Assembly (NCBI GenBank): GCA_013297655.1
Contig: JAAFHV010000024.1
Span: 1 to 56,894, forward strand
Length of the DNA stretch: 56,894 nucleotides
Source of the DNA: Myxococcales bacterium
GTDB lineage: Bacteria > Myxococcota_A > Polyangia > Polyangiales > Polyangiaceae
Reading direction: 5' to 3'
Part shown: positions 4,111 through 22,751 of the stretch, piece by piece
How positions within the stretch are numbered: position 1 is the first letter of the stretch
How the letters are laid out: each line of letters starts with the position of its first letter
Notes under the pieces: model-generated
Told to the model about the DNA's origin: nothing
What the model saw: only the letters and a program-made list of their open reading frames with translations
Database searches by the model: none
Translations under genes and position numbers: made by a program

Positions 4111-4160
4111 TCTCATTTGCTCGAACCGCACGAGGTATGGGTCGCACGTCGGACCACCAA

Positions 4161-5299: not shown

Positions 5300-5726
5300 C
5301 GATGTTACGGCGCTCCTCGCCCATCGCTCGCGCCGCCAGGCCGAGCTCCACTGCCTGGTCCGCGGCCTTGTCGTTGCCGTTGGCAAATTCCATCAGAAGC
5401 TGCGTCAAGATCGGGTCCTTGCCCTCAAAGCGTACCTAAAGATCTTGAGTGCGAAGGCGATGCGCGGGCACTCGATGTGCCCATTCGGCAGCCAGCGTCG
5501 ACTGCGGGCGTGCCATCTACCTTGGCTGGCTAAGCTCCGTGCGGGAGGCCAACGTTGTCCTGCGAAATCCTAACAGTGTCACCCAGAGTCACATCGCTCC
5601 GCGGCGCCTACTGCTTGAGATCGACAGGCTTCGATCTGAAGAACCGCCTCGAGGAACGAGACTAACTGCGACGGCGAGCGTAGGTAGACCGGGGCAAGCT
5701 GTAGCTGGTGACAACGACCGACGATT
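5300..5726. other. Gene-poor stretch
   Basis: About 430 bases. On the - strand, 5408 to 5302 reads TQLLMEFANGNDKAADQAV and beyond, which faintly resembles the start of an ECF-type sigma factor, but it is too short to name. Nothing else supported; it probably contains the promoter for the following cassette. Confidence 0.3.
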
Positions 5727-7175: not shown

Positions 7176-7197
7176 GCGCTACACACTGCCAAATCGG

Positions 7198-9234
7198 CTA
7201 CCCCAACACCTTCATGGCCGCGGTCTTCGCATCCCCGAAGAAGATCGGGTCCACCTGCTCCATGATGTCCGCGCTAACGTCCAAGAAGTTGCGCTTGTTC
7301 TCGATCGGGATGAGCGCGCGCTTGGCGCCGTTGTCCTTGGCCACCTGAAGGGGCTCGGTGAGCGACCGCAGGGGCTTGACGTTTCCCTGCACGCTCAAGT
7401 CCCCAAGGATGAGCAGAGCAGGGCTCACGGCAGCCTTGCGCAGCGCGGAATACGCTGCAACGAAGAACGCGACGCCGAGCTCGGCCTCCACGCGGTTCGC
7501 GAGAAGGTCGATCACCTCGACGTGCAGGTCCGACACGTCGAGGTCGCGCGCGACGCCGAGCTCGGACTTCTTGCTCTGAAGGACGCTGAAGGCCCGCTGG
7601 ACGGATTCCTTCATTGCACCGGCTACTCCTCCGGCTAGCTTCAGCTTACCCGTCCCCGACGAGACGGAGACCTCCATGCGGTAGAGCCCAACCGTTCCGT
7701 CGGAAGTCACTCCCGCGCTGTAGACGGTGCCGGGAGACAACGGCTCCGGCGAGATGAGGTCGCGTCCGCCCTGCTCAGGTACCCCGACGAACTTCTCTTC
7801 GCCGGTCTCGTTGTCCGAATAGCTGAAGGACGTGTGATAGTACTCAAAAGAGCCCATCTTCTTGAGCTGCTCCTTCACGCGACGGCGGCCCTCGACCGCG
7901 AGCTCGAGAATCTCCCCAAGCTCTTCCTTGCTCACCTCCCCGTGTGGGAAGAGAATCTTCATGAGGCCGGACACTGTCTTGCGCACGGCCTTCCGGTCGC
8001 GTGCGTTGAGGTGAGCGCCGAGCGAGAAGTGCCGGTCGATGACCTCGGTGAAGTTGTGCTTGCGGAGGTCGCGCAGCGCCTCGGCGAGGTAATCCACGAC
8101 GAACCCGTAGTGGCTCGTGAACATCTCGTTGCGCATCTTCGGGATTTCCCAACCGGGAAGGTAGAAGTGCAGGCGATCGATGAACGCCATGTCGTCGCGG
8201 ATGATGTCCGGCATGGGCGCGAAGAGGTGTCCGGTCTGCACCATCACGTCTACGGGCTGGTTCGTGTTACCGAACATCGCGATGCTCCCATCGCCCGAGA
8301 CCGCCTCCTGCCCTCGCTGAAAGGTGCCGGACTCGCAGTAGGTCTTCATCGTCGTGATGACCTCCTTCGGCATCTTCTGCAGGTCCGCGACCTCGTCGAA
8401 GCCGACGACGTCCCAGATCTGAACCATGCCCTTCTGCCTGCCGCTCATGTGGCCGAAGAGGTTCGCCACCGTTGTGCCGCCCGTGAGCAGCGCGGAGTAC
8501 GGCGAGACCTCCTGCACAACGTAGCTCTTGCCCGTACCGCGCGGGCCTAGCTCGACCAGGTTGTAGTTGCGCTCGGCGAGGGGGATGAGGCGAATCAAGA
8601 ACAGCATCTTGAGGCGGCGGCTCATCTCGTTCGGCTCGTAGCCCATGCTCCGTAGGATGAGGTCCAGCCACTCGTCCGTCGTAAGCTGGCCGCGGACGCG
8701 TCGATACTCGTCGAGATCGAACGTTGCGATCTGAATGGGCGTCAGCTTGTCGATCCAGAACGGGTTTTTGCCCTTCGACTGCTCGTCGTACTCGAACCGC
8801 ATGTCCACCTGCGCCCAGACGCCCCCCATGACCAGGCGCTCGTAGTCGCGAACGTAGTGCTCAGGAACGTGCACGTTCTTGTGGCCGAAGTTCGTCACCT
8901 CGGCCCAGTAGTCCGAATCGACGATGCGCACCTTCACCTTGTCGATGAACGTGTGCTTGCCGCGGTCCTTCACCTTCGCCTGCGCCTTCATCGACTCGTC
9001 CGAGCGGATGTAGTTGTTCGCGAGCGTGTCGTTCACCACCTGCATCCCCATCTGGATCGACACCTCGTCCGACGACGCGCAATACTTGCCGAGGAGAAAC
9101 TCGAGCACGAACACGGGCACGTTGGCCCCGACCTTCACCTTACGGACGAGGTCTTTGCGCACCACCTTGCCCGCGAAGAGGCGATTTACCTTGTCGTCGA
9201 GCGCATCGCGGCTCGGGGTCGTTCCGTTGCTCAT
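7198..9234 (-). CDS. brxL: BREX effector BrxL (Lon-like AAA+ protein)
   Basis: 678 residues, the usual BrxL length. The N-terminal half precedes an AAA+ core with Walker A GPRGTGKSYV (about 239-248) and Walker B VVGFDEVAD; the last ~170 residues form the Lon-protease-like domain. In that domain the usual Ser and Lys of the Lon dyad are not evident: the segment aligning with the Ser reads VEAELGVAFF and that aligning with the Lys reads PLRSLTEPLQ. BrxL is known in type 1 BREX as a phage-restriction factor that works as a DNA-loaded AAA+ motor. Here it is the last gene of the operon, 20 bases after pglZ, where a type 6 system would be expected to end with brxD-brxHI. Cytoplasmic. Confidence 0.93.
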   Translation of the reverse strand: MSNGTTPSRDALDDKVNRLFAGKVVRKDLVRKVKVGANVPVFVLEFLLGKYCASSDEVSIQMGMQVVNDTLANNYIRSDESMKAQAKVKDRGKHTFIDKVKVRIVDSDYWAEVTNFGHKNVHVPEHYVRDYERLVMGGVWAQVDMRFEYDEQSKGKNPFWIDKLTPIQIATFDLDEYRRVRGQLTTDEWLDLILRSMGYEPNEMSRRLKMLFLIRLIPLAERNYNLVELGPRGTGKSYVVQEVSPYSALLTGGTTVANLFGHMSGRQKGMVQIWDVVGFDEVADLQKMPKEVITTMKTYCESGTFQRGQEAVSGDGSIAMFGNTNQPVDVMVQTGHLFAPMPDIIRDDMAFIDRLHFYLPGWEIPKMRNEMFTSHYGFVVDYLAEALRDLRKHNFTEVIDRHFSLGAHLNARDRKAVRKTVSGLMKILFPHGEVSKEELGEILELAVEGRRRVKEQLKKMGSFEYYHTSFSYSDNETGEEKFVGVPEQGGRDLISPEPLSPGTVYSAGVTSDGTVGLYRMEVSVSSGTGKLKLAGGVAGAMKESVQRAFSVLQSKKSELGVARDLDVSDLHVEVIDLLANRVEAELGVAFFVAAYSALRKAAVSPALLILGDLSVQGNVKPLRSLTEPLQVAKDNGAKRALIPIENKRNFLDVSADIMEQVDPIFFGDAKTAAMKVLG

Positions 9235-9254
9235 GGGCTTATGCTCGCTGTGCT

Positions 9255-11816
9255 TCAGAGGGAGAGGCGAACCGGGATGTCGACCGGGGAGCGGTACATT
9301 TCTGCGTCGGTGCCGGGATCTTGAACCGCAATCCGGACCGAAGCCACGCTCTCGTCGCTTAGGAGGAAGGCTACCGTCACGGGCTTGTTGGGCTCGAGCA
9401 CCACCGAGCCGGTGCTCCGATCGAGCTCGCCATCAATCGCCATGCCGACCGCGCCCACCTGTTTGCCTGCAGTCAAGAGCAGCGGCCGCACCCGGACCGA
9501 GGCAGCGCCCAGCATCATCTGCGAGCCTCCGTAGGTCAGGGTCACACTGAAGATGCGATTGGTGATCGCCTCGGGTAGGCCGCCGACCTCGATCGGGCTC
9601 GACGTGCGGAGGGGCTGCGACGCGCGGCGTGGCGTGCGCAAGGTCAACACCGGGATCACCATCTCCTGAAGCGACGGGCCGCCGTGATGAAACGCGAGGT
9701 CCCCGCCCGCTCTGAACACACCGGTCGCGGCGGGGAACACGAGCTCGAGGTCCGAAGCGTAGCCGAGTGCCGCTGCGGACACCCGCACGCATCCCGGCGG
9801 AGTCGTCCCGCCCCGGCCGATCCAGCATCGACGGTGCAAGTCGACGGTGTTTCCGCCCGGGGCGTTCGTGCGCATCGACTCGTCACGATCACTCGCGAAG
9901 AACAGATGCCCATGGTCGGCGCTCACCACGGCGTGCTCGACACCAGCGGCCGCGAGCTTGCGAATGCCGCGCGCAAGGTTGTCGATGACGGTGTCCATGA
10001 CCTGGCGTGCTTGGAACGTGAAGCCCGTCTCCCCGGCGTGGTCGATCTCCTGGGAGCGCACCACGACCACCTGCGCCCCCTCGAGCTTCTTACCGAGCTT
10101 CGACGGCTGGAGACTCAAGAGCTCGTCGAGCGTCAGGTCTGCGAGCTTCGGTACCCGGCTACTGGCGTGCTTCTTTCGCGCGGTGAGGTCCGGAAGGAAC
10201 GCGTCGTCGATCCTGGCTCCGAGCTTTCCCTTCTCCTCCGTCACCGAGAAGCTCGACGAAGCGCCGGGCATGAGAGCGGCCATCCCTATCGGAGTGATGC
10301 TCGGAAGAGCCCCTAGCGCAGGGCGAATCGCAACTTCAGAAGTCTTCGGCAGCCGCTCCGAAAGCTCGACGCCCATCTCGAAGCGCATGGCGTCGACGAG
10401 GAAGTACGCGACCGGCTTTGGCTTTTCGCTCACCAGCTCGCTCCATACCTGCGTCTGATGGAGCGTGCCGGGTATGGTCCAACCAGCCTTCGCCAATGCC
10501 TTGGTGAACCCCTCGGCCATCGCATGGACGACATCTTCGTAGGCGCGACGAACGATGGCCAGCGGCCGTTCCGCGGGATCCTCGTCCAAATTCGCTAGCC
10601 AGCCCTCCATTCGCCGCTGGGCCTGATCCAAGCGGAACCAACCGGGTCCAGATTGCCCAGAGTACGCGTCGAGCCAAGCGCGCGCGTCGCCAGACATCTT
10701 TCCGACCGAGAGTTTGACCTCGGCCGCCAACTGCCCGAGCTCGGCGATGCGCCGCGTCGCTTCCCATTGGGCCTTCCGGTTTACGTCTCGATCGAGCCAA
10801 AAGCTTTGCTCCCGCGCAGCAACGAGGCCGAGCGCCGAATCGAAGCTGCCGGCCGTGATGAGCTCGGCCGCGTGGAGGAGGAGCGCGCGTTCCTCGAAGC
10901 GAAAGGTGTCGATGGCGCCAAGCGCGCCCGGCGAGAGGTTCGCGTTCCTCAGCGACAGCTCCTGCTCGACGCGATCGGCGAGCTCCGCGTACGCGTCGGC
11001 GTGGCCGGTGCGCAGGCGCCGAGCAACCTCTCGAACGCCCGCTTCCTCGTCTTGCGTCGCGGGTTTGGGCACTGCATCGAGCGATGCTGGTGCCACACAC
11101 GAGAGGTCGAGCCGGAACTCGCCCGCGAGCACGTAGCGGAGCGTGATGGCCCGCAGCTTGGAGATCGGCGCGTCGCCGCCAAGCTCGAGCCCCAGACGAG
11201 CCTTGACGAGCTTGGTCAGCTCGGGAGTGGCTCCCTTGCTCACAATATCCACGTCGCGCGCGTCACTGGCAAGCCACGCCGTGAGCAGACCATCGCTGCC
11301 GCTCGCATCGTGAAAGATGCTCTTAAGGATCGACGGCGGCTCCGCGCCGGAGTTGCCCGCCGCGGCGCGCGCCAGATCCTCGTAGGAGACCTTCCGGTCG
11401 AAGGGCAGCATCTCGTCGACGACGCCGAGCGTGAACTTCTGAAGAAGAACGTTCTTGGCGAGCTGCTTCAGCTCGGGCTTCCAGGTGCGGCCCGCCTTCT
11501 CCAACTCCATCAGCACCGAGGCCTTCGCGTCGTGGGCGAGGCCGGGAATATAAACGACCAGGTTGTCCGGCTTGTCACCGCTGACGAGCGGCTCGACGAC
11601 CGCGCGCACCTCGAACAGCGAGCCCGCGTACTCTGCGAGGCTCGCCCGGATGCCCGCGACGCCCACGGCCACCGGCTGGGCCGCTGCGCGCGGACCGCCG
11701 CGCACCTCGTCGATGAAGGGCTGGAACTCGCTTCGCTCGTCGTACCAGACGACGACCCGACGGTCCTTGAGCTTGTCGGCGAGCTGCTTCGCCACGTAGT
11801 CGTGAAGCGGGTGCAT
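9255..11816 (-). CDS. pglZ: BREX alkaline-phosphatase-fold protein PglZ
   Basis: 853 residues, normal for PglZ. The C-terminal half carries the alkaline-phosphatase-superfamily metal-site motifs: VDAMRFEMG (Asp475), SITPIG (about 506-511, candidate nucleophile region) and SADHGHLFF (Asp634, His635). The N-terminal half (VVVWYDERSEFQPFI) is the typical PglZ entry segment. PglZ is required for BREX host methylation and phage exclusion and is the signature gene of the system. Its ATG overlaps the stop of the HNH gene by one base (TGATG), so translation is coupled to the inserted Septu-like pair. Confidence 0.95.
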   Translation of the reverse strand: MHPLHDYVAKQLADKLKDRRVVVWYDERSEFQPFIDEVRGGPRAAAQPVAVGVAGIRASLAEYAGSLFEVRAVVEPLVSGDKPDNLVVYIPGLAHDAKASVLMELEKAGRTWKPELKQLAKNVLLQKFTLGVVDEMLPFDRKVSYEDLARAAAGNSGAEPPSILKSIFHDASGSDGLLTAWLASDARDVDIVSKGATPELTKLVKARLGLELGGDAPISKLRAITLRYVLAGEFRLDLSCVAPASLDAVPKPATQDEEAGVREVARRLRTGHADAYAELADRVEQELSLRNANLSPGALGAIDTFRFEERALLLHAAELITAGSFDSALGLVAAREQSFWLDRDVNRKAQWEATRRIAELGQLAAEVKLSVGKMSGDARAWLDAYSGQSGPGWFRLDQAQRRMEGWLANLDEDPAERPLAIVRRAYEDVVHAMAEGFTKALAKAGWTIPGTLHQTQVWSELVSEKPKPVAYFLVDAMRFEMGVELSERLPKTSEVAIRPALGALPSITPIGMAALMPGASSSFSVTEEKGKLGARIDDAFLPDLTARKKHASSRVPKLADLTLDELLSLQPSKLGKKLEGAQVVVVRSQEIDHAGETGFTFQARQVMDTVIDNLARGIRKLAAAGVEHAVVSADHGHLFFASDRDESMRTNAPGGNTVDLHRRCWIGRGGTTPPGCVRVSAAALGYASDLELVFPAATGVFRAGGDLAFHHGGPSLQEMVIPVLTLRTPRRASQPLRTSSPIEVGGLPEAITNRIFSVTLTYGGSQMMLGAASVRVRPLLLTAGKQVGAVGMAIDGELDRSTGSVVLEPNKPVTVAFLLSDESVASVRIAVQDPGTDAEMYRSPVDIPVRLSL

Positions 11817-12478
11817 CAGGTGTCTCCTCGCACGAGCTGGCCCTGCCGGCGAAGCTCGGCTGCGATAAACGGCGCGCGCCGCTCGAGGTATGAGAGGTCG
11901 ATTCCCTTACTGCCCGGGCCGAGCCGGTAGTCCGCGACGTAGCGCCTTCGCTGCGCGCAGCAATCACGCAGGTTCAGGAGCGGCAAGGTCGCCTCTACCT
12001 TCTCTCGCAAGGCGGAGGGTGCCGTCTCGCCACGTACGACCCGGTAGGTAGCCAGGTCCAGCGCGAACCAGCCAACCTCGGCTTCGACGGGATCGACGAG
12101 CCCCACCAAGTCCCCCTTCTTGGAGTTCACCACACCGGTGCAGAGACGGTAGTTCGTCCACTCGTAGACCTTGTCCCACGCCAAGGACTTCGGCAGCACG
12201 TGGTCGACGGTCGGGTTGCCGGTGTCCTCGATGAACATCGCCAAGTACGCGCAGCGCTGTTCGTAGGCGTCCATCATGTCGTCGAGGGCATCGCGCCAGA
12301 ACGGGGGAAACGCGATTGCCGAGATCTCTGCCTCCGTCTCGGCGACTTTTTTGCGTCGCGGACCGGGGCGCTTGGCGCGAGGCTCACGCCCGACAAGCTC
12401 GTCGATCGCCGCGAGCCCGGGCTGCCGAACGTTCGCGTCGAAATCGGCTGGTTCTGCGGCGAGGATCACCGGGATCAC
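11816..12478 (-). CDS. HNH endonuclease, PtuB-like (Septu-type)
   Basis: 220 residues from a GTG at 12478 that overlaps the stop of the ATPase gene (GTGA). The HNH core is VDHVLPKSLAWDKVYEWTNY (91-110) followed by NSKKGD (118-123): His93 and the downstream Asn/Lys-rich turn match the nuclease of Septu PtuAB and retron-effector PtuB proteins. In those systems the HNH partner of an ABC/SMC-like ATPase degrades nucleic acid or nucleotides on phage infection. The pairing with an adjacent AAA ATPase in the same order as PtuA-PtuB supports the call. It could instead be an AAA15-HNH pair from a related, unnamed system. Confidence 0.8.
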   Translation of the reverse strand: MIPVILAAEPADFDANVRQPGLAAIDELVGREPRAKRPGPRRKKVAETEAEISAIAFPPFWRDALDDMMDAYEQRCAYLAMFIEDTGNPTVDHVLPKSLAWDKVYEWTNYRLCTGVVNSKKGDLVGLVDPVEAEVGWFALDLATYRVVRGETAPSALREKVEATLPLLNLRDCCAQRRRYVADYRLGPGSKGIDLSYLERRAPFIAAELRRQGQLVRGDT

Positions 12479-13782
12479 GGCTTTCGCCCCTCGGGCTTGT
12501 GCTGCTCCATGAAGTAGCCCCAGGGAACCCAGAACGGATCGATGTCGGGAAGCCCTGCCTCGCGGAGCGCTTTGTCCGCTGCCTGGATGTCGTCCCGGGA
12601 CGGAGCCTCTGCGTCGAGCACAACCTGCGCTTGGGCGATGGCCTGTTCGCTCTCCAGCGAGCGCGGCTCTTTCAGGTCGAACGCATCGCTGACCAGCCAG
12701 TTACCCACCTCGCCGCGGCGGATGAACGGGCGCTTCCTGAGAACGGCCTGCTGCTGTTCTAGATCGAGGTCGAACCATGCGTCCTTCGTCACGTCGAACA
12801 CTGGCTCGACCGACGCGAGGACGAGCGGCGAGTGCGTAGTCGTCACGACCTGAAGCTCCACCTCGTCGTTGAGTGCTCGAAGCAAACTAGGGACGATCGT
12901 GCGCTGCCACTTCGGGTGAAGGTGGCTCTCGACTTCGTCGATGAGCAGGACGAGCGACGTATTGGGTGGGCGCTTCTTCAGCCCCGCGGCGATCTTGTGT
13001 TCTCGCCACGCCCACACGATGAGGTACGCAAGACCTAGGATGCGGCGCAGGCCAGCCGGTGCATGCGCTACGGGGAGCTCGCCCGCAGGCCCAGTCACCA
13101 CCGAGAAGTCACGGGGATCGTCGACGTAGACGCGAGCGACCTTTCGGGTCAGTCGGAACGGCTCCTCGCCCGCGAGCTGCTCGACAAGAGCCTCGAGCTG
13201 ATCGAAATCGGTATTGCCGGTTTGCCCTGCCCAGCGGCTCGCGTCGCGGACGAGACCTTCGCAGACCAGCTTGCCTCCGTCGGTGAGGGCGAGCCCGTCC
13301 CAAATGTCAGCCTCGCGGAACTGATAGGCGTTGCTCCTACCCAAAGCACCCTGACCGAACGCCAAGCGGAAGTCCTCACCCACACGTAGCGGGTCGTGCA
13401 CGGATATGCCGCCGTCGACGCGAAGGTAGATGACCATCGGGCCCTGCATCCGGGTCTCTTGTCGGTCCGCCGTCTTCGTCGAGGCAGGAGCACCTTCGGT
13501 TCGCGTCCATCTCGAGTTGCCGAAGTCATACACCGACGTTGACGATAGAACCGCACCACTTCTCAGCTCGGTCCACTCAATGGCTGCATCGTTCTTCTCG
13601 GGCACGATTCCCTTACCGCCCCACGTGAGCGGCCAGGTCCGAGTGAGCGCCCACCACGCGCAGTCGAGGAGCAGACTTTTTCCGAGCCCATTGTCGCCGG
13701 TGATGAGGTTCAGCCTCGGGGCGAGGTCCATCGTCATCTCGGGCGCCGGCCCGACGTTCTTCAGGTGAAGGGACTCAAGCAT
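12475..13782 (-). CDS. AAA (ABC/OLD-like) ATPase, PtuA-like
   Basis: 435 residues from ATG 13782, which overlaps the end of pglX(C) by 8 bases; a longer frame from 13815 would add only 11 residues inside pglX(C). Walker A is GDNGLGKS (29-36), Walker B is LVLLIDEVESHLHP and a switch-like VTTTHSPLVL follows, the pattern of AAA15/21 ATPases such as PtuA, OLD and RecF relatives. No long coiled coil is apparent, so it is a compact ATPase rather than an SMC protein. It directly precedes the HNH gene. Likely role: NTP-dependent sensor or regulator of the HNH nuclease. Confidence 0.82.
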   Translation of the reverse strand: MLESLHLKNVGPAPEMTMDLAPRLNLITGDNGLGKSLLLDCAWWALTRTWPLTWGGKGIVPEKNDAAIEWTELRSGAVLSSTSVYDFGNSRWTRTEGAPASTKTADRQETRMQGPMVIYLRVDGGISVHDPLRVGEDFRLAFGQGALGRSNAYQFREADIWDGLALTDGGKLVCEGLVRDASRWAGQTGNTDFDQLEALVEQLAGEEPFRLTRKVARVYVDDPRDFSVVTGPAGELPVAHAPAGLRRILGLAYLIVWAWREHKIAAGLKKRPPNTSLVLLIDEVESHLHPKWQRTIVPSLLRALNDEVELQVVTTTHSPLVLASVEPVFDVTKDAWFDLDLEQQQAVLRKRPFIRRGEVGNWLVSDAFDLKEPRSLESEQAIAQAQVVLDAEAPSRDDIQAADKALREAGLPDIDPFWVPWGYFMEQHKPEGRKP

Positions 13783-15808
13783 TCGTTCTGCCTCTTCTCG
13801 TCTTCTTAGCAGCACCGCTGGTCGCAGGCGGCTCGAGCAGGCCCTTCAGCGCGGCCTTCACGGCGGGTGAGGTTCGCTCACGGACGAGCTCGTCCACGCT
13901 ACGGGTGGGCGTCTGTCGGGAGGACCACTTGCCGGCCTCCTTCCCATCGGTCCCCTCGACCCAGAACACCTCCTCGACGCCATGAGCAATAGCGAGGCTG
14001 CGGTCCTTGGCGCACTTGGGCACCACCCGTTCAGGCCAGAGGTGCATCGAGAGATGGGCCCAGTCGTACTTCCCCTCGCAGAGCGCATCCCACGTAGACT
14101 TAAGTTCCTTCTGCCACGACTTATTCTGCGGAACGAGTCGCCAGAGCGGGGCGAAGTTGATGATGACGCCGTCATCGAGGTTCGGATTCCAGAGCGGCGC
14201 GACACGCTTCACCTCCTCGAGGAAGGCGCGGAGCTCCTCGACCAACGCCTCCTGCGCGGCGAGCTGCTTGCGCTGAGCGGCGGTCGCGCCGTCGCGCTGC
14301 TCGCTCGTGAGCGACTCGAGGCGCCGTTCCTCGTGCGCGAGCTTGGGCGCGACGTAGTCGTTCTGGACGCGGAACAGCATGTCCTTGCTGAAGGCGTGGA
14401 GGTAGAGCCAGACCGAGTAGCTCCCCGACGACGTCGCGAGCTGCCAGTAGATCGGCGCCTTGCGACGGCTCTTCGAGTACATCTTGATGTGCAGCGGAGA
14501 GAACTCCTTCGCGAGCCACACGCGGAGGTTCTCGGCCACGTCGACCTTCACACGCTCGGCGATGGCGATAGCGCGTGCGGCGAGGTCGTCGGCGTGGCCT
14601 TCGTCATCGACAAGGATATCGGGGCGCTCGGCGGGCTCTTCGCCCTCGGGGTACATGCCGGGCGAACGCGAAGGCAACGGGTCGAAGGGCTCGGGCTCGG
14701 AAGGGATGCCGCGTTCGCCGGTCACAAGGCGCAGGTCGAAGCGACCGAAAGCGACGCCCACGAGCCAGGAGTTGAGCCCCTCAAATGACGGCTCACCAGC
14801 AGCAGTGGAGTCCTCCTCGTCCGCAGCCTCGTCCGTATCATTTTTGCTCTCGCTGTCCGACTGCGAGGAGGCTTCCTCGACAAGGACATCGTCCTTGAAT
14901 GCGTACAGTTCGGCCGCCAATGCATCGATCGCCCCACGAACTTCAGTCAGGCGCTGTTCGTTTGCGACAAATTGATAACCAGTGACTCGTTCGTTCAACT
15001 GTCCTGGCAGCAAGAACGCGTGAGAGGTTTCGTTGGTGGAGTCTCGCCTTCGACTCGTGCCCCATGCTGAACGGGCCAGGGCTGCGATTCGCTCTTCGGA
15101 CTCCAGCTCAGGAACGGGCGTACGCGATACCGCACCCGTCTCGTATGACTTCGCGAGGTCCAGACGCGCCAGTTGAAGCTCCAGCAATCGGACGAAAGCA
15201 CGAGAGTTCAGAAGCGCGCAGGTCGCTAGCAGAGAGTCCACCGTCTGCGTCGGAGTGAAGATAGCCGGCCCCTTATCTCCAAATACGCAATGCTCCGGCA
15301 GCGCACGGACCGCGAAGTTCGTGGCGCGCCGAGACCATGTAAGCCCCCCGAGCCCGTATTTCGAGTAGTTCATCGTAATCCGTGACCAATGCGAGTTATC
15401 ATAGAGCGTCTCAGCCCAGCTCTTGAACTCGGCGCCGTCACCGACCCAGCGAATCGAGAGATAGATGTCAGCGTAGAAGGCGGTTGCAGTGCCTCCCTTG
15501 GCTAGACCGAACCAGCTCTCGCGGTCATCGAGGCGAGTCTCCCAGTGCAGCCGAAGGAAGCGGAAATTGTCTGCGGTGGCGACACCTTGACCCGCGAATC
15601 GTCCCGTCTTCTCGAACGACGGCAACCGGCCAAACGCGCGAACCAACTCGCTTGCAGCCCAGTACGCGAGGGGGGCTCCAGGAATGCGAAGGAGATCGTC
15701 CACGGCGCGTTCGAAGACGACCACATCGTCTGCCGTCGGCGCCGCGCAGAGAGACTTCAACGTTGCGCCCTTATCCTCGGCGCTGTTGAGTCGAAAGAAC
15801 GTAGTCAT
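13775..15808 (-). CDS. pglX: PglX C-terminal half (target recognition and C-terminal region)
   Basis: 677 residues. It begins MTTFFRLNSAEDKGATLKSL, which in ordinary PglX proteins would be the middle of the chain just after the methyltransferase core, and continues with what look like the target-recognition segments. An acidic, Ser/Asp-rich linker lies near residue 300-330, a coiled-coil-like stretch (LESLTSEQRDGATAAQRKQL) near 530, and the characteristic PglX C-terminal block with WNPNLDDGVIINFAPLWRL and MHLWPERVVPKCAKDRSLAI. Its ATG overlaps the stop of pglX(N) (ATGA). By itself it lacks SAM-binding and catalytic motifs, so it should act together with the N-terminal protein to methylate adenine in the BREX site. 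Confidence 0.85.
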   Translation of the reverse strand: MTTFFRLNSAEDKGATLKSLCAAPTADDVVVFERAVDDLLRIPGAPLAYWAASELVRAFGRLPSFEKTGRFAGQGVATADNFRFLRLHWETRLDDRESWFGLAKGGTATAFYADIYLSIRWVGDGAEFKSWAETLYDNSHWSRITMNYSKYGLGGLTWSRRATNFAVRALPEHCVFGDKGPAIFTPTQTVDSLLATCALLNSRAFVRLLELQLARLDLAKSYETGAVSRTPVPELESEERIAALARSAWGTSRRRDSTNETSHAFLLPGQLNERVTGYQFVANEQRLTEVRGAIDALAAELYAFKDDVLVEEASSQSDSESKNDTDEAADEEDSTAAGEPSFEGLNSWLVGVAFGRFDLRLVTGERGIPSEPEPFDPLPSRSPGMYPEGEEPAERPDILVDDEGHADDLAARAIAIAERVKVDVAENLRVWLAKEFSPLHIKMYSKSRRKAPIYWQLATSSGSYSVWLYLHAFSKDMLFRVQNDYVAPKLAHEERRLESLTSEQRDGATAAQRKQLAAQEALVEELRAFLEEVKRVAPLWNPNLDDGVIINFAPLWRLVPQNKSWQKELKSTWDALCEGKYDWAHLSMHLWPERVVPKCAKDRSLAIAHGVEEVFWVEGTDGKEAGKWSSRQTPTRSVDELVRERTSPAVKAALKGLLEPPATSGAAKKTRRGRTNA

Positions 15809-18021
15809 GCGCGACGCTCCAGGCAGTAGGCTGCCGTCTCGACCATCGCGCTATCCAGAACTCCGGCTCCGAGGTCAGCGAGAACACAGAGACGTCCATC
15901 CTTTTGGAGAACCTGCTCGCGCCAGTTTTTGAACCCGGACAGAAAGAACCCGGTCCTCGATGTAATCGCTCCGACCATTCCTCCCTGTGGAGTCAATTCG
16001 AGGCCACGCTCAACGAAGGCGCCGTAGACATCGTCCTTGCTATGCGCATACCCCTTCCAAAGTGTCTGTTTTGCGGCAGCAGTAATCGCTCCAAACGGAG
16101 GGTTCATCAGCACGACATCGAACTTGCGTTCCGCAATCGCGAGCATGCCGACACCTTGCACCGCGTCCTCCGCGAAAAGTCGCCGTCGCGTGTTCGTCGC
16201 TCCGGCCTCCTCGCGCACGAACCGCTCGAGCGCAGCGCGGATGCGCTCCTCGGGTGGCGCGAAGAGGTCGCCCGTCTGCCCTCGCTTCGCCTGACGCGCG
16301 ACGAGCTGCTCGACGCGCAGCAAGAGCCCGAGGTCGCCCGCGAGGCTCAGCGACTCGACCAGCGACGTAAACACGCGCCCGAGCTCCGGATCCCCCAGCT
16401 TGGCGACGAACTCCTTGGCGATCTGCTCATCGGCGACGAGCGGCTCGGCCACGACGATGTTCGAGCGACGAATCTGCGCGCGCTCGGCGCGCCCGATGCC
16501 GAGGTCCTTGCACGCCCTCTGCGCGCGCATCCACAGGGCGAGCTGCGCGATCTGCGCGCATCGCGGGTCGATGTCGACACCGTGGAGGTTGTGTGCGAGG
16601 ACGAGCCCCGGCACGGCCTTCTTCAACGCGTCGAGGCTCGGGTAGTCCTCGGCGAGCGACTTGCCCGTCGCCTCGCTCTTCGGGCTCTCCGGATCGACGT
16701 AGGCCTCCTCGTAGATCACGAGCAAGAGGTCGAAGGCGTAGAGCAGGAAGTGCCCGCTGCCACATGCCGGGTCGAGCACGCGCAGGTCGCGCGGATCCTT
16801 TTTGGCGCGGGACAAGACGAACCGCGGAGCCTTACTCGACTCGGCCTCCTCGAGGAGCACCGTGCGGAGGCGCTGGCATAGCACGTCGAGCGCTCGAAGA
16901 TGTTCGCCCTCAGGCTCGAAACCGGAGTGCCTTACCCTGCGGTGCTCGAAGAAAAGGCATATCCAGAGTTCAACGGCGCTGCCTTCCCAAGACCCCATGC
17001 GCTGGGCAGCCGTGCTTCGCGCGTTCGCGAATTCGCTAGCATCGCCGAGGCCGATCGAGGGCGCGAGCTCATACCCATTGATGACGTGCGCGAACGCCGA
17101 CGATTGCGACCAGTCGAAGTCCTCGGGAATCGCGCTCCACGTTCCCTTGATGACCTGGTCGACCCATGGCTCCCGGTCGCTGGGTTCCGTGCACCACACC
17201 TCGTTCGGCGGCCGCACCATGTACTCGCACTTCTGTGCGAGCGTGGTGTCGCCCCGGCGCATCTCGTACCAGATGCGCCCGAGCGTGTTATCGGTGAGGA
17301 ACTCCACCACGTAGCGCGGCGTGAAGAACTGGTTGCGCACGGCAAGCTCGCGACTGTTGCGCGGCGCCTGGGAGCCGCCCTGCTTCACATCGCGCATCGC
17401 GGCGCGCTCCTCTTTGCCGTTGAAGAACTGGTAGACCCAGCCAATCGTCTCGTCCTCCCCCCACACGCGGGCGAGTTCGATGGCGTTCAAGATCTCGAGA
17501 AGCTGCTCGAAGGTCGCGCGCTTGGGCCACAGCACGCTCGACGGGTCTCGGCGGTCGAAGAGGACCTTCACCTCGGTCGAGAGCTCGTCGAATAGCGACT
17601 CGAGGTAGAGCCGGTAGCCCGCGCTCTCGGGCAGGAGGGGTAGCCCGGGCGCCATGCCGCAGAACTCGCCGTACCCGGCAGACTGCTCTCCCTTGGTGAT
17701 GCACTCCTGCACCAGCTTGCGGGCCTCAAGCATCTTGAGGGCTACGAAGCGATTGAGCGTCGTGAACGCAGCGTCGCGCAGGTAGTCTCGGGCGGCGTCG
17801 GCCGGGCTCATGCCCGCCGAGCGCTTGTGCTCGATGGCGGCGACGACGCGCTCGCGCGAGAACGCCTGACGGGCCGAGAGGTGCTTGCCAGCCGTGGCGG
17901 CCACCTCGCCGTCTCGATGCACGTCGAAGTCGCCGTCGAGCTGGGCGGCGAAGTCCTCCTCGAGGAGCTTTCGAGCTCGTTGTGTGGAGCGTTCGATGGC
18001 GTTGCGTGTGTCCTTATCCAT
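15805..18021 (-). CDS. pglX: PglX N-terminal half, N6-adenine DNA methyltransferase
   Basis: 738 residues. SAM-binding motif I is DPACGSGHF (417-425) and the catalytic motif IV is NPPF (640-643), preceded by HNLHGVDIDPRC; the N-terminal 350 residues are the helical region of PglX (NQFFTPRYVVEFLTDNTLGR). The chain stops after MVETAAYCLERRA, where most PglX proteins continue into the target-recognition part. The rest is supplied by the next gene via an ATGA overlap. PglX methylates one adenine of a non-palindromic host site in BREX, marking self DNA. Its own ATG overlaps the XRE/GIY-YIG stop by 8 bases. Confidence 0.9.
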   Translation of the reverse strand: MDKDTRNAIERSTQRARKLLEEDFAAQLDGDFDVHRDGEVAATAGKHLSARQAFSRERVVAAIEHKRSAGMSPADAARDYLRDAAFTTLNRFVALKMLEARKLVQECITKGEQSAGYGEFCGMAPGLPLLPESAGYRLYLESLFDELSTEVKVLFDRRDPSSVLWPKRATFEQLLEILNAIELARVWGEDETIGWVYQFFNGKEERAAMRDVKQGGSQAPRNSRELAVRNQFFTPRYVVEFLTDNTLGRIWYEMRRGDTTLAQKCEYMVRPPNEVWCTEPSDREPWVDQVIKGTWSAIPEDFDWSQSSAFAHVINGYELAPSIGLGDASEFANARSTAAQRMGSWEGSAVELWICLFFEHRRVRHSGFEPEGEHLRALDVLCQRLRTVLLEEAESSKAPRFVLSRAKKDPRDLRVLDPACGSGHFLLYAFDLLLVIYEEAYVDPESPKSEATGKSLAEDYPSLDALKKAVPGLVLAHNLHGVDIDPRCAQIAQLALWMRAQRACKDLGIGRAERAQIRRSNIVVAEPLVADEQIAKEFVAKLGDPELGRVFTSLVESLSLAGDLGLLLRVEQLVARQAKRGQTGDLFAPPEERIRAALERFVREEAGATNTRRRLFAEDAVQGVGMLAIAERKFDVVLMNPPFGAITAAAKQTLWKGYAHSKDDVYGAFVERGLELTPQGGMVGAITSRTGFFLSGFKNWREQVLQKDGRLCVLADLGAGVLDSAMVETAAYCLERRA

Positions 18022-18610
18022 TTACGTCGTCAGGCTCAGTCTCTACGCCTTGCTTGTTCAGCAGAAGATGGGTTCGCAGGAACTTGATGAGCACCTGCTC
18101 CGTCTGCTTGCAGAGTTCTTCGTTGGTGATCTCTAAGTAAAACGCAGATGCCACCACCGGGGGGCGGAACCAGAACTTTTCGGTATGCTCTGGCACCCTT
18201 TCCGAGATGGGCCGTTTCGTGGCGCGGCCCACGTACACCGGCCGTTTCGTCTTGTCATAGAAGACGTACACGCCCTTCACCGGCGGTAGCGCAGCCTCGG
18301 CGTAGGGGTCGAAGCTAACGAGCGACCCGATGCCGGGAATTTCCGTGTCCTTTACCTCTGCGTCGAGGATCTTTTGGTCGGGCCCGGTGCCGAGCGCAGC
18401 TCGCAGCTTCTCCACGGTGGCGGATTGCGGATTGCGTGAGCGCCCAGTCTCAAGGTTCGAAATCTGCTGGCCGCTCAGACCAGCCTTCCTGGCGAGCTCC
18501 CCCTGCTTCCAGCCCTTTTTGCGACGTGCTGCACGTAGCCAGACCGCAAAGGGCGGAAGCTCCTCTTCCTCGTCAGCTTCGTGCCCATCTTCATTCTCAG
18601 TGGCTTCCAT
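18014..18610 (-). CDS. XRE helix-turn-helix fused to a GIY-YIG nuclease domain
   Basis: 198 residues from ATG 18610, with a purine-rich GGGCAAGG ribosome binding site just upstream; the longer frame to 18667 would overlap brxC. Residues about 21-75 form an XRE/Cro-type helix-turn-helix (KQGELARKAGLSGQQISNLE). Residues about 111-190 form a GIY-YIG fold: GVYVFYDK at 113-120, PVYVGRA at 124-130, ISERVPEHT, Glu171 in the helix, and Asn185. All catalytic positions of the family (two Tyr, Arg, Glu, Asn) appear present. It sits between brxC and pglX. It could repress the operon and/or cut DNA; compare BrxR in other BREX loci, which uses a WYL domain instead. Confidence 0.85.
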   Translation of the reverse strand: MEATENEDGHEADEEEELPPFAVWLRAARRKKGWKQGELARKAGLSGQQISNLETGRSRNPQSATVEKLRAALGTGPDQKILDAEVKDTEIPGIGSLVSFDPYAEAALPPVKGVYVFYDKTKRPVYVGRATKRPISERVPEHTEKFWFRPPVVASAFYLEITNEELCKQTEQVLIKFLRTHLLLNKQGVETEPDDVNG

Positions 18611-18621
18611 TGACCTTGCCC

Positions 18622-21600
18622 TTATTGAACGATGACCTTCTTGCCAGCCCCAATGAGCCGTGCGCACTCCTCGCGTACGCCGTCGAGCGCGGCCTCGAGC
18701 TGCTCTTCCGTCTCAACGCCCCCGGCGAAGTAGATGCCGATGCTAACGGTAACGACGCGCTCGCCGTCGAGGATGCGACGCAGCTCGGCGATGGCGGCGC
18801 TGAGGCGCCCGCCGCAGGCGTCGCGTTCGGCGCGAAGCTGCGGGACCGGCACGACGAACTGGGGCTCCGCTGCCCCATGGCGCAAGGGCGCGTCGAGCCG
18901 AGCCCGCTGGTCGTCCGTCAGGTCGCCCCATCCGGGCGTGCGCGCCAACGTCTCGCGCGCGTTCGTGTAGGCCAAGATGCGCTGCTCGAGGGCGGCCGAG
19001 TAGCGTTGGCCGTACGCCTCCTTGAGTGCCCGAGCGTGCTGCTCTATCGCCGGTAGGTCCCGGAAGAAGGTTTCGCGTGCGAGAAGGTCCTCGAGCGAGG
19101 TGGCGCGGGTGCGTAGCTCGTCGCTTAGGTCGGATTCCTGTCTCAAGAACGTCCAACAGTCGGCCATCGTCTTGCGGGCGATATCGAGGTCGTACAGACG
19201 GGACTCGTTGAGGACCTGCTCGAGCTCTACCGCGCGCTTGACCGCGTCCTTGATGCCACGGTGGCTCGCGTTGAACGTTGCGATGGCGTTGTCCTCGGAG
19301 CCGCGCAGGATGGCCTTCATCTGGCCGATCGCGCTCTCGAGCACCGCGCCACCCGGCAGGCGGTGCGCGGCGAGCGTTGCGAACGCAGACGAGACGGTGT
19401 CCTCGTGATGCGCGACCTGCTTCCGCAGGTCGGCCACGATGGCGCCGGCGTTCAATTCCTTCACTTCGCTGCCGAAGGTGTCGCGGAAGGCCTCGGACGC
19501 CTTCACCAGCTCCTCGAACTCAATGCCCTTCTTCGGGCGGAACGAAGCCTGCCGGAACAGATTGTTGTTCGAGAAGGTATCTCGCGCTTCGACACCGGTG
19601 ACCGTGTCGAGCGTCTGCCCCTTGCTGGTCGCCTCGATCTTGCCGGCGCGGAGCAGCGACAGCACCAGAAGGCGCACGGCTTCGAAGTCCCAGCCAAACG
19701 GCTCCTTGGCGAGCTCTTCTGACAGGTAACGACCGCTCGCGGTATCACCGTAGTTGGCGCGCTCGTCGATGCGGTCGAGCACCTCCTTGAGTGGGCCGCT
19801 CTCCGTACGAAACACCGTCTTGCCCTTCTCGTCACGCAGAAGGCCGAGGCCTCCGAACACGCTCGGCAGGCCCTGAAGGTTTTCGGCGGTGAAGAGCGCA
19901 TCGGCGCCCTTCTTCACGTCTGCCCCCTTGGCGGCGGCCTCCTTGAAGCGATCGAAGACCTCGGGCAGCACCGTGCCGAGCACCTCGGAGGCCGTCTTCC
20001 CTACGTCGACGGCGCGGTCGCCGGGGCTGCGGTCATTGCCCCGGAAGTAGATGCGGCCCGAGAGCGCCGCGGCCTTGAGCAGCCGACGCAACTCGTCGCC
20101 GTGACGGCGCAGGCGAACGCGTTCTTCCGCAATAAGGCCGGGAGTGTCCTCGCCTTTGGTCTCGCGCTCCTTGCGCGCGAGCATCTCTTTCGACCGGAAG
20201 AGCTCGTCGATTTCGCGCTTAATCGCGTCGGTGAGCGCGACGGCCCAGAAGACGTGCTTGCGCTCCTGCTGGCTGCGCGTGCGCAGCTCAGCCGCAAGAC
20301 CGTCGAAGTCCGCGCCATCGTCGGCGAGGTGGACCTGGAACACAATGTCACCGGCCGTGAGCTCGCGGCCGTGGATGGCGAGCCCCGCCTTGAAGGTCTT
20401 GGTGTCGAAAAGCGTGTGCGAAGGCTGCGGCTGCCAGAAGCCCGAAAGCACCTCCTGGTAGAGTCGGTGCGAGTCGCCTGGCTTCGCGCTGATGCCGTTG
20501 CGCAGGCGCTCCCAATCGTCTTCCGCGGGAGTCGGGATGCGGTAGCCATCATCACCATGGCGCACCTGGTGCGACGCCTCGAGCGCTCGCAGGGCTTCCT
20601 TCACGGAGGCAAGCTGCGAGTCACCCCCGACCTGGCCATGCAGGGCGGCCGCGAGGTTCTCCGCGCTGCGGTGCACGCTCTTCACGTACTGGAGCAGGCA
20701 GATGACCTTCGCCACCGCCTGCGCCAGCGGGTGGTCGACGAGCTTCGAGATGGCGGAGATCTTCGCGCGCACCTCGGAGCCGATGTTGCCCTCGACGAGG
20801 TCGTAGACGTGATCGAGCCGCACGAGGTCGCCAACCTCGCCCTCGGCGAGGTTCACCGCCGGGTTGATGAGGAGTTGCTGCGCGAGCTTGATGATCGTGC
20901 GGTTCGCGCCACCGACGTGCTTGCTGGCTCCGCCCTGCGTGCGCAGGCCCGAGACGACCTGAATGATGAGGTCGATTTGGTACGGAAGCAGCGGGTAGAG
21001 GTCGATGAAGGCCTGACGCGAAAGGTCGGGGAGCTTGATGTCCGCAGTAAGCCTCGTGTGATCGAGGAGCCGCGCACGATGGTCGTCGAAGAGCTTGCCA
21101 AGCGCCGTTTGCGCGGCAGCGTTCTTGGACAGCACGCGGCGGCTCGTGACCTCCGAAATGTCGCTCGGCTCGAGGTGAACCTGCAGCGGGAAGCGGTCCA
21201 TCAATCGGGCAAGCTCGATCTTCTTGTCATCGAGACCGGAGACGAGCTCGCCGAGCTTCTCTTGGGAGGTGACGACGACCCAGTGCTTGCCGCGCCCCTT
21301 CACGCCGAGCTGCTGCACGATGGCCTGCAGGTCGAGCATCTTCTGGACGTCGCGAGCGACGAACTGGCCGACCTCGTCGACCACGAACATGAGGGAGAGC
21401 CCGGGCTTGCGGCGCTTCATCAGCTCGCCCGCGCGCTCGGCGAGCTTGCCCGGCGTGATGTCGGCCTTGTTCTTGACGGCCTTCACCCACGAGTCGGCGA
21501 CCGGGTAGGTGTCGGGGTCGAGGCTGTGGAGCACGCGGCTCGCCTCGGACAGCGCGAAGGCAACCTTGCTCTTCTCGCTGGACCACGCCTTCTTGAAGAG

Positions 21601-22167
21601 GCGCTTGTACTCGTCCTCGAACTTGCCGAGCGAACCCTTATCCTCGAGGCCGATCTCGAGCTCCGAGAGGTCGAGATCCTTCGCGTAGCCGAGGCTTTGG
21701 AGGAAGAGCCCGTACATGATCTCGGTAAGGGTCTGGTTGCCGCTGCGGATGCCTCGGTCGGTCGAGACGTCGAAGATGACCGCGTGGGTCGGGATCTTCT
21801 CGTTGATGGCCTTGAGCAGGACCTGAAGCTTCTTGTCGCCGGTGCGCTCGGCGAAGCGCTCGGCGGCGGACTCGCCGACCACCGTGCGGTTTGCGACGGA
21901 GAGGCCGAGCATCTTGGCGAAGCTCGACTTACCGGAGCCGAAGAAGCCCGAGACCCAGATGGATACGCCGTCGGTCGGCTTGTTGGGGGCCTCGCGGTAC
22001 GCCTCGAAGATGCCGGTGTAGTGCGTGCGGATCGCGTCCGTGACGACGTACTCCGTGATCTCGTCGCGGATGATCTCTTCGTCGGTCTGGTCGACCTTGA
22101 TGACTTCTTCGATCCGACGATGAATGTCGTTCGCGAACAGGGTCTTGATGGGCGTCGTCATCGTCAT
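18622..22167 (-). CDS. brxC: BREX P-loop ATPase BrxC
   Basis: 1181 residues, in the usual range. Walker A is GFFGSGKS (74-81) within an N-terminal AAA domain, with Walker B LSLMFVVDEVGQF further on. The remainder is helical, as in other BrxC/PglY proteins. BrxC is essential for BREX phage exclusion and is thought to act as an ATP-dependent complex member with PglX and PglZ. Start ATG 22167 lies 5 bases after the brxB stop, with GAGGA as ribosome binding site overlapping the end of brxB. The next gene (XRE/GIY-YIG) begins 11 bases after its stop. Confidence 0.95.
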   Translation of the reverse strand: MTMTTPIKTLFANDIHRRIEEVIKVDQTDEEIIRDEITEYVVTDAIRTHYTGIFEAYREAPNKPTDGVSIWVSGFFGSGKSSFAKMLGLSVANRTVVGESAAERFAERTGDKKLQVLLKAINEKIPTHAVIFDVSTDRGIRSGNQTLTEIMYGLFLQSLGYAKDLDLSELEIGLEDKGSLGKFEDEYKRLFKKAWSSEKSKVAFALSEASRVLHSLDPDTYPVADSWVKAVKNKADITPGKLAERAGELMKRRKPGLSLMFVVDEVGQFVARDVQKMLDLQAIVQQLGVKGRGKHWVVVTSQEKLGELVSGLDDKKIELARLMDRFPLQVHLEPSDISEVTSRRVLSKNAAAQTALGKLFDDHRARLLDHTRLTADIKLPDLSRQAFIDLYPLLPYQIDLIIQVVSGLRTQGGASKHVGGANRTIIKLAQQLLINPAVNLAEGEVGDLVRLDHVYDLVEGNIGSEVRAKISAISKLVDHPLAQAVAKVICLLQYVKSVHRSAENLAAALHGQVGGDSQLASVKEALRALEASHQVRHGDDGYRIPTPAEDDWERLRNGISAKPGDSHRLYQEVLSGFWQPQPSHTLFDTKTFKAGLAIHGRELTAGDIVFQVHLADDGADFDGLAAELRTRSQQERKHVFWAVALTDAIKREIDELFRSKEMLARKERETKGEDTPGLIAEERVRLRRHGDELRRLLKAAALSGRIYFRGNDRSPGDRAVDVGKTASEVLGTVLPEVFDRFKEAAAKGADVKKGADALFTAENLQGLPSVFGGLGLLRDEKGKTVFRTESGPLKEVLDRIDERANYGDTASGRYLSEELAKEPFGWDFEAVRLLVLSLLRAGKIEATSKGQTLDTVTGVEARDTFSNNNLFRQASFRPKKGIEFEELVKASEAFRDTFGSEVKELNAGAIVADLRKQVAHHEDTVSSAFATLAAHRLPGGAVLESAIGQMKAILRGSEDNAIATFNASHRGIKDAVKRAVELEQVLNESRLYDLDIARKTMADCWTFLRQESDLSDELRTRATSLEDLLARETFFRDLPAIEQHARALKEAYGQRYSAALEQRILAYTNARETLARTPGWGDLTDDQRARLDAPLRHGAAEPQFVVPVPQLRAERDACGGRLSAAIAELRRILDGERVVTVSIGIYFAGGVETEEQLEAALDGVREECARLIGAGKKVIVQ

Positions 22168-22172
22168 GGTCC

Positions 22173-22751
22173 TCAGAAGATCTTCGGGCGGTAGTTGTGC
22201 TCCGCGTCGAGCACGCCCATGAAGCGCAGACCTGCCGCGCCATCGAGGTCGCCGGGGTAGAAGAGAACGGTGGGCACGAGGACGCGGCCCTTGAGCTGCT
22301 CGAGCAACGAGAACGTGCGGTACACGGGAAAGAGCGCGCCGGTACGCATAATAAGTACTACGTCCCGAAGCGGATCACCGTCGTCCGGTAGTTGCGACGC
22401 GACGAGGTCGACGAGCGGCGAGTCGCCTTCGGAGAGCACCGCGTGAACCGTTTCCACTACCGTGTCCGTGCCGAGCTCACGCTCGACGTCGAACCACTCG
22501 GGGAGCGGACGCTGCAACCGCATCGCGGCATCGAGACACTGAGCGAGCGAGATGCGGCGAACTCGCTTGCCCTTTTGCTCGAGACGCGTCTCTAGCAGGG
22601 TGACCTGCTGGCGCAGCGCAAACTCTTCTTCTGGGTCGTAGCGAAAGAGAGCATACGGCATATCGTGATACGCGCTGATGCGTTGCCGGGGGTCGTGGAG
22701 CGCGAGAACGGGCTCTAGGTCTTGCTTCAGCCGGTGCTCAAGGTCGCTCAT
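22173..22751 (-). CDS. brxB: BREX protein BrxB (DUF1788)
   Basis: 192 residues, normal for BrxB. The sequence shows the family pattern: an N-terminal DLEHRLKQDL helix, PYALFRYDPEEEF, and a C-terminal LIMRTGALFPVYRTFSLLEQ followed by VPTVLFYPG. BrxB is a small conserved BREX component needed for defence whose biochemical role is not settled. Its start overlaps the brxA stop by 4 bases (ATGA). Cytoplasmic, no membrane segment. Confidence 0.92.
   Translation of the reverse strand: MSDLEHRLKQDLEPVLALHDPRQRISAYHDMPYALFRYDPEEEFALRQQVTLLETRLEQKGKRVRRISLAQCLDAAMRLQRPLPEWFDVERELGTDTVVETVHAVLSEGDSPLVDLVASQLPDDGDPLRDVVLIMRTGALFPVYRTFSLLEQLKGRVLVPTVLFYPGDLDGAAGLRFMGVLDAEHNYRPKIF

Follow-up and report, generated by a model that had tools for sequence, protein, structure and literature searches.

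A Septu gene pair docked between pglX and pglZ of a myxococcal BREX operon: a candidate exchangeable backup effector

Bacteriophage exclusion (BREX) operons are already known to host additional genes between pglX and pglZ. A survey of about 12,000 genomes found the two genes together in about 9,000, with other genes lying between them in about 7,000 and a known defence system in this position in about 2,000; of these last, BrxU made up 15.98% and the phage anti-restriction-induced system PARIS 2.21% (PMC11341690, whose supplement may also list Septu). Dyads of an OLD-ABC ATPase and an HNH nuclease were likewise reported in BREX loci and proposed to be backup suicidal effectors (Rakesh & Krishnan 2026, PMC12839542); OLD-ABC proteins with HNH, PD-(D/E)XK or PIN partners were counted in 594 taxa (PMC12839542). 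Here, we analyze such a domain pair, a Septu-like ptuA-ptuB pair carried inside a BREX operon of a Myxococcales bacterium. The DNA analyzed (hereafter the window) is a stretch of 56,894 bases with 65.5% G+C, one contig of a 9.9-Mb assembly. Because these two papers report genes between pglX and pglZ and OLD-ABC/HNH dyads in BREX, the kind of arrangement is known. The main text of PMC12839542 contains neither the word Septu nor the string Myxococc, and the parts of it consulted hold no insertion boundaries, empty site or repeated separate nesting. In the consulted parts of both papers we did not find codon-precise docking, recurrent independent nesting or the separate swapping of the middle of pglX and of ptuAB between two near-identical operons, all described below. 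A literature search covering titles and the beginnings of abstracts, with supplements outside its scope, found no paper treating Septu nested in BREX.

Several described systems combine an accessory nuclease with a host operon. The BREX locus of Salmonella D23580 embeds PARIS, likewise a two-gene system of an ATPase and a nuclease, although the cargo differs; deleting PARIS there kept methylation near the wild-type level and caused no loss of defence against phage TB34 (PMC11341690). BrxU, a GmrSD-type protein in the BREX locus of pEFER, is likewise an extra nuclease that provides separate and complementary protection and acts without pglX, but it is a single protein encoded between brxC and pglX that cuts modified-cytosine DNA (PMC8565348). 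The independence of BrxU and the outcome of the PARIS deletion are precedents, and thereby support a Septu cargo that is independent of BREX. PrrC in EcoprrI is likewise an accessory nuclease gene in a restriction operon, but its host is a Type I restriction-modification system, it acts as a single protein and its trigger, Stp, is known (PMC12707154). As for Septu itself, H75 and N91 are essential in the tested E. coli system EcB88, which works by cleaving tRNA-Tyr (PMC13096335), and cutting of nicked DNA by Septu is cited in PMC11555353.

In the window, an ABC/OLD-type ATPase gene (ptuA, 12475..13782, minus strand, 435 amino acids (aa), ATG at 13782 and stop codon ending at 12475) and an HNH nuclease gene (ptuB, 11816..12478, minus strand, 220 aa, GTG at 12478 and stop codon ending at 11816) lie between pglX and pglZ. 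An earlier note, made from the DNA letters without database searches, had described this position with overlaps of 8, 4 and 1 bases and had called the pair Septu-like. The overlaps are exact in the open reading frames (ORFs) and in the raw sequence, and profile search confirms the name over nearly the full length of both proteins: PtuA matches the PADLOC PtuA1 model PDLC00307 at 443.9 bits (protein residues 1-429 of 435 aligned to model positions 1-421 of 424), and PtuB the PADLOC PtuB model PDLC00348 at 194.5 bits (protein residues 1-215 of 220 aligned to model positions 1-193 of 198). The ATPase also matches the AriA model of PADLOC, at 78.3 bits. The pair has in common with Septu two adjacent, co-directional genes, their order, the ATPase and HNH motifs, the PADLOC models and the H-N spacing of EcB88 (PMC13096335), H93 and N109 of PtuB being 16 residues apart as are H75 and N91 of the tested protein. 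It differs in lying inside a BREX operon and in its distance from the studied pairs, to which structure matches are weak: the closest solved structure to PtuA is the retron Ec83 ATPase (E = 3.2e-11), with PtuA-named chains at about 1e-8 to 1e-7, while solved PtuB gave no match to the PtuB of the window at E up to 1 and three Protein Data Bank matches at E 0.78-0.94 are at chance level. For PtuB, Pfam gives no match at E 0.001, and an AlphaFold2 model built with only 2 sequences has a mean predicted local distance difference test score of 35.7, too low for use. Because the pair scores below the retron-derived NCBIfam cut-offs and no reverse transcriptase family was matched by any of the ten scanned ORFs between 7198 and 24007, we read it as Septu and not as a retron effector. 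Judged by gene pair, order, motifs and PADLOC models, it is a complete Septu (PtuA-PtuB).

Catalytic residues were scored as columns of alignments of 46 PtuA and 46 PtuB rows. K35 of the Walker A motif GDNGLGKS is present in 44/46 rows (the other two being gaps), and D282 and E283 of Walker B in 45/46 and 46/46; in PtuB, D92 is found in 44 rows and H93, N109 and N118 in 45 each. The catalytic columns of both proteins are intact in all seven rows from nested copies. Ratios of non-synonymous to synonymous divergence (dN/dS) of 0.14-0.30 for ptuA and ptuB, from the six pairs compared, indicate purifying selection on both genes. The G+C content of ptuA (0.638) and ptuB (0.656) falls inside the range of the operon genes (0.591-0.664), so that composition is uninformative on import, and we dropped a recent import judged on this basis.

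A search with the PtuA model (E <= 1e-30) found the family in 11 of 59 relatives. Among 377 genomes of the phylum, 30 carry it at 41 places, to which the search of relatives added two, giving 43 Myxococcota places: the window and 42 fetched stretches. BREX genes flank the pair in six of them. The other 37 are without a detected BREX gene and are called standalone here, meaning that tblastn gave no BREX match in the fetched stretch, several of these stretches stopping at contig ends after a few kilobases (e.g., L068, L083, L089 and L094); a weak opposite-strand methylase match (24%) in L033 was not counted as BREX. The window, L043, L082, L041 and L092 each have, on one contig, pglX before the pair and pglZ after it. 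In L081, brxC and pglX precede the pair and the contig ends inside ptuB, where the nested arrangement is probably cut short. Five records of a plasmid collection encode a PtuA of the same family, four of which were studied (H5 was left out): three are standalone (L185, L186 and L187), and in Aeromonas caviae (NZ_AP026896.1, L184) the pair is again nested between pglX and pglZ. The family thus has seven nested copies, six between pglX and pglZ and the seventh (L081) right after pglX at the end of a contig, and the order pglX-ptuA-ptuB-pglZ exceeds chance, as it recurs in other genomes. One genome (G014) carries four Septu pairs of this PtuA family (L034, L035, L037 and L042); the stretches fetched around them are all without a detected BREX gene.

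Comparison with three other loci places the edges of the pair. Against the standalone L044, homology begins with the ptuA start codon, at its first base (13782), and ends at 11823, 4 bases short of the ptuB stop codon. Against L139, a BREX operon with an empty junction whose PglZ and BrxC proteins are 82% and 89% identical to those of the window, homology is lost after 13814, close to where pglX ends, and is regained at 11829; against L136, with its different cargo, the corresponding limits are 13827 and 11818. Because of these boundaries, we take the exchanged unit to be the pair itself, ORF to ORF, within a few bases. On the minus strand, the pglX stop and the ptuA start overlap by 8 bases (13775..13782), with a Shine-Dalgarno-like AGAGG, found by eye, within the end of pglX; the ptuA stop and the ptuB start overlap by 4 bases in the raw sequence (GTGA, 12475..12478); and the TGA stop of ptuB (11816..11818) has base 11816 in common with the ATG of pglZ (TGATG), a GAGGAG lying just upstream. 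This GAGGAG also precedes the ptuB stop in the standalone L044, and ptuB therefore carries its own ribosome-binding-like stretch to the start of pglZ.

The earlier note held that the overlaps couple translation of the two systems. Coupling through them is plausible from the gene layout, but a special Septu-BREX relation is not supported, as overlap with pglX is common in the slot for any cargo: it is seen in three of four near relatives with other cargo (L136, 4 bases; L137, 1 base; L140, 4 bases; not L138). At the pglZ side of these four, L140 has an overlap and L136, L137 and L138 have gaps of 3, about 157 and 31 bases, respectively. In L139, pglX and pglZ overlap by 1 base without any cargo. 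Direct repeats at the slot edges of the window amount to 14-17 base partial matches with no convincing footprint, and we rejected a repeat footprint there. In L082, a 106-base partial copy of the pglZ start (6593-6698 and 8215-8320, 80% identical) flanks a further insert between ptuB and pglZ, comprising a DUF6932 gene and another ORF of no named family; the copy is likely the footprint of an insertion by recombination.

The pglX-pglZ junction is a cargo slot that holds Septu, other genes or nothing in relatives of the window. A census of PglZ found 61 places in 53 of the 377 genomes (58 newly fetched and three already in the set). Both pglX and pglZ could be assigned to a single strand at 33 of these places, a count that excludes L041 and L092, which came from the PtuA search. 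The gap between the two genes is <=97 bases in 9 of the 33 and >=265 bases in 24, and contains Septu of the window's PtuA family in three; pglX ends were set by tblastn, so slot length in divergent BREX may be overestimated, and gaps of 4-8 kb (L146, L150, L153, L157 and L165) may not be simple slots. Eight readable loci are nearest to the BREX of the window, a ninth window-like locus (L151) being cut inside pglZ by a contig end. Seven of the eight slots are filled, three with Septu (the window, L043 and L082, the last with its DUF6932 gene and other ORF behind the copied pglZ start). The others contain an SMC-like ATPase with a Schlafen AlbA_2 gene (L136), Fic (L137), a 231-aa protein (L138, 11334-12029, plus strand), or a 220-aa protein (8779-9441, minus strand) with an AAA_21 ATPase (L140), and L139 is the empty one. 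The 231-aa and 220-aa proteins have no Pfam match at E 0.001 and are candidate novel defence genes.

Among the census gaps that were scanned, which are a part of all gaps, the slots hold AAA_21 + DUF4276 pairs (L143 and L144), DUF4276 as the one recognized domain (L161), a YhcG nuclease (L149), HipA_2 with DUF3037 (L167), DUF6119 (L170), a nucleotidyltransferase with HEPN (L127), DUF5615 (L173) or AAA_21 (L171 and L175), and two of the longer gaps contain TIR and GmrSD (L157) and Peptidase_M78 (L165). In type-B-like BREX of the plasmid collection, found through brxC of L041, all seven slots are filled: with Septu in one (L184), and in the others with HNH and DarT among others (L188), GmrSD and an unnamed gene (L189), AIPR (L190), DarT among others (L191), an ATPase with a restriction endonuclease (L192) and an ATPase with a McrC-like gene (L193). 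The divergent type-B BREX, in which Septu was first met in L041, L092 and L081, was searched for by PglZ, with 9 of 377 genomes over the cut-off and eight readable slots, the ninth contig (L211) beginning at pglZ. Three of the eight carry Septu (one split by a contig end), three carry other cargo (L206, L207 and L208) and two (L204 and L205) are about 250 bases long with no same-strand ORF >=100 aa; a tenth genome, below the PglZ cut-off, has a Bro-N gene in its slot (L209). This cargo was named by eye in L206 and by Pfam in L207, L209 and one slot ORF of L208. The idea that Septu belongs invariably to one BREX subtype was rejected, since type-B slots hold it in just three of the eight readable cases. 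The slot of L208 carries Abi_2 and, by eye, an ATPase + DUF4276-like pair, and another pair of an ATPase and an HNH-like protein (HNH by eye) lies between brxC and pglX of the same operon (5293-7368, plus strand).

The six nested rows from Myxococcota are scattered over separate parts of a 43-row PtuA tree, and well-supported branches force five label changes, which may be gains or losses; the bootstrap of this tree was not settled, and as few changes suffice in 113 of 500 shuffles of the label. In a tree of 46 rows that includes the Aeromonas copy, a quick tree without bootstrap from which the fragment L045 was omitted, the nested label again shows no clustering (157 of 500 shuffles being as low), and a single clade of the seven nested rows is rejected (approximately unbiased test, p = 4.1e-44). 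We therefore rejected a BREX-dedicated Septu lineage, the nested rows forming no clade with six rows nor with seven. The pair of the window, the nested pair of L043 and the standalone pair of L044 form one group (support 100/99 in the 43-row tree and 100 in the 46-row tree). The best reading of these trees is at least three separate nestings (window + L043; L082; L041 + L092), and one old nesting would have to predate the split of window-type BREX from the divergent type-B BREX of L041 and L092. Between the window and L043, synonymous divergence (dS) is 1.137 for ptuA, 1.144 for pglZ and 0.791 for brxC; the equal values of ptuA and pglZ are consistent with a pair that diverged jointly with BREX since a common ancestor, dS near 1 being close to saturation.

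Two near-identical operons from different families, L041 and L092 (compared over 5235-18807 and 1175-14920), show where exchange occurred. Their DNA is 89-99% identical from 5,446 (brxC) through early pglX to 10,245, drops to 47-51% in mid-pglX (10,540-11,383), recovers to 96-98% between 11,680 and 12,579, a span that takes in the end of pglX and 170 bases at the start of ptuA, falls to 38-77% in the rest of ptuA and in ptuB, and is 81-96% beyond. Because conserved DNA lies between them, the pglX island and the ptuAB island changed in separate events; from its position, we infer that the mid-pglX island is the target-recognition region. The window compared with L136 and L139 gives the same pattern, in which the backbone is conserved and the breaks fall in pglX and at the slot. 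PglZ and BrxL form one ORF of 1416 aa in L041 (14557-18807, plus strand) and are separate in L092, whose brxL is frame-shifted.

Taken together, we lean, with somewhat better than even confidence, toward a self-contained, swappable Septu that serves as a backup effector in the pglX-pglZ slot, co-expressed with BREX and not a new BREX part. What supports this directly is the sequence identity of the pair, its intact motifs and purifying selection, its boundaries, the other or absent cargo of relatives and the dispersal of nested copies over separate parts of the tree; co-expression, coupling, trigger, substrate and functional independence from BREX we infer. Septu would have been placed almost codon-precisely in the slot, from the ptuA start codon to the ptuB stop codon, so as to be transcribed together with BREX, with translation tied to pglX upstream and pglZ downstream. 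The ATPase would keep the HNH nuclease inactive until infection, and the released nuclease would then cut tRNA or DNA and block phage production when BREX fails. Several points weigh against this. NCBIfam scores are under their cut-offs (66.1 against 500 bits for PtuA, 14 against 52.15 for the retron HNH model), and the equal dS of ptuA and pglZ fits long joint inheritance, though near saturation and with a lower value for brxC. That nested copies gather at a single junction would not be expected from passive landing alone and could mean functional coupling. Overlap on the pglZ side persists in the empty operon and where the window, L043 and L092 carry Septu, and is rarer with other cargo. Reported PtuAB substrates vary, from tRNA-Tyr (Septu EcB88 and retron-Eco7) to nicked DNA (Septu of E. 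coli ATCC 25922) to no tRNA (retron-Eco4) (PMC13096335, PMC11555353). Finally, the backup role is read from sequence, with trigger, expression, binding and phage effects as predictions. A wider and more tentative proposal is that the junction is a dedicated docking slot, in which effector pairs inserted from start to stop codon are each put under PglX/PglZ dose control. Within an otherwise near-constant operon, two parts would be replaced repeatedly and in separate events, the cargo and the central region of PglX, which likely serves target recognition. If so, BREX would be a chassis with two exchangeable parts, what it recognizes and what it does on failing.

PtuA could instead guard BREX, much like PARIS or the PrrC of EcoprrI, by sensing a phage inhibitor of PglX or BREX such as an Ocr-like DNA mimic and freeing PtuB, an explanation we consider possible but doubtful. 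Ocr triggers PARIS, and inhibition of the restriction locus that houses PrrC activates this nuclease (PMC12707154); Ocr also binds PglX and inhibits BREX (PMC11341690). The ATPase of the window has its AriA match, and other BREX slots hold AAA_21 + DUF4276 pairs resembling PARIS (both domains in L143 and L144, DUF4276 alone in L161, and L208 by eye, not scanned), a label that is our interpretation. However, no BREX was detected in 37 of the 43 places of the PtuA family, and neither Ocr nor Gp5 activated the PARIS inside Salmonella BREX in the conditions used (PMC11341690). It is improbable that PtuAB is an integral effector that acts only with BREX, on unmethylated phage DNA recognized by PglX. 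The overlapping genes on both sides of the pair, the near-saturated equality of ptuA and pglZ dS and the position of the nested copies would fit such a role, but most pairs are standalone, the nested copies are not one lineage, pglX-side overlaps are seen with unrelated cargo too, and close relatives have an empty slot (L139) or unrelated cargo. The suggestion of the earlier note that the pair is an additional effector of BREX or controlled by its methylation state is not supported beyond a probable shared expression, given the empty L139, other cargo in four near relatives and the standalone majority. BREX without the pair but with its own 1-base pglX/pglZ overlap was found, and so was the pair outside BREX in most places; a lack of any association is less clean, given nested copies at one junction and a pglZ overlap kept in Septu copies. 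A passive hitchhiker, at a junction that tolerates insertion without breaking the operon and with a pair that adds nothing to BREX or to defence here, would agree with the great diversity of slot cargo and with the 106-base copy in L082, which looks like a plain recombination footprint; we regard it as unlikely given the purifying selection on ptuA and ptuB, their intact catalytic residues and the defence or toxin families to which much of the named cargo belongs. With a swappable backup effector as the favored reading, a new Septu-BREX hybrid gives way to a testable general picture, an exchangeable second effector at one BREX junction, and natural empty, Septu and other-cargo operons on closely similar backbones form an allelic set for asking whether cargo guards BREX or merely travels along.

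The host operon runs on the minus strand in the order brxA, brxB, brxC, a helix-turn-helix (HTH) protein, pglX (two ORFs), ptuA, ptuB, pglZ and brxL, and has the complete BREX type 1 gene set (brxA, brxB, brxC, pglX, pglZ and brxL). Type-specific NCBIfam cut-offs are missed by the PglX halves (231.5 and 375.3 against 500 bits) and by PglZ (281 against 400 bits for the type 6 model and 125.4 against 270.35 for the type 1A model), and we class it as BREX with a type-1 gene set, giving no subtype. The methylase domain of pglX is in its N-terminal ORF (15805..18021, minus strand, 738 aa; PADLOC PDLC02526, 817.2 bits; Pfam Eco57I), which overlaps by 4 bases the C-terminal ORF (13775..15808, minus strand, 677 aa, stop codon ending at 13775; PADLOC PDLC02532, 696.9 bits), the half that ptuA adjoins. 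Because PADLOC holds separate half-length models, the split is a recurrent one; pglX is also split in L043 and is one ORF in L082. About 128 residues of the N-terminal ORF (277-404; 16809-17213, minus strand) are without counterpart in L043, and the DNA has no homology in L136 or L139. Downstream of the pair are pglZ (9255..11816, minus strand, 853 aa, ATG at 11816; PADLOC PDLC02559, 1306.3 bits) and brxL (7198..9234, minus strand, 678 aa; NCBIfam TIGR02653, 975.4 bits, over the cut-off). BrxL is 91-94% identical across the genera and families of the window, L043, L136, L139 and L151, where PglZ is 69-82% identical; brxL may have been exchanged or be under unusual constraint.

On the other side, brxC (18622..22167, minus strand, 1181 aa) matches NCBIfam NF033441 at 860.7 bits, over the cut-off, and brxB (22173..22751, minus strand, 192 aa) matches Pfam PF08747. 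The ORF containing brxA (22748..24007, minus strand) matches PADLOC PDLC02454 over residues 163-419, and the real start of brxA is probably internal to it, since the match starts at residue 163. Between brxC and pglX, the HTH protein (18014..18610, minus strand; Pfam HTH_3) is a second insert of the operon. It lies outside the homology blocks with L043, L136 and L139, and tblastn of the loci searched gave no match; its C-terminal half looks GIY-YIG-like by eye, and Pfam gives no match there. Upstream of brxA, an AddAB-like pair (24165-30343, minus strand) encodes a UvrD helicase with a PD-(D/E)XK domain and a second PD-(D/E)XK protein, and a PD-(D/E)XK + UvrD pair likewise lies upstream of BREX in Deinococcus sp. 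QL22 (L191, 3212-9222).

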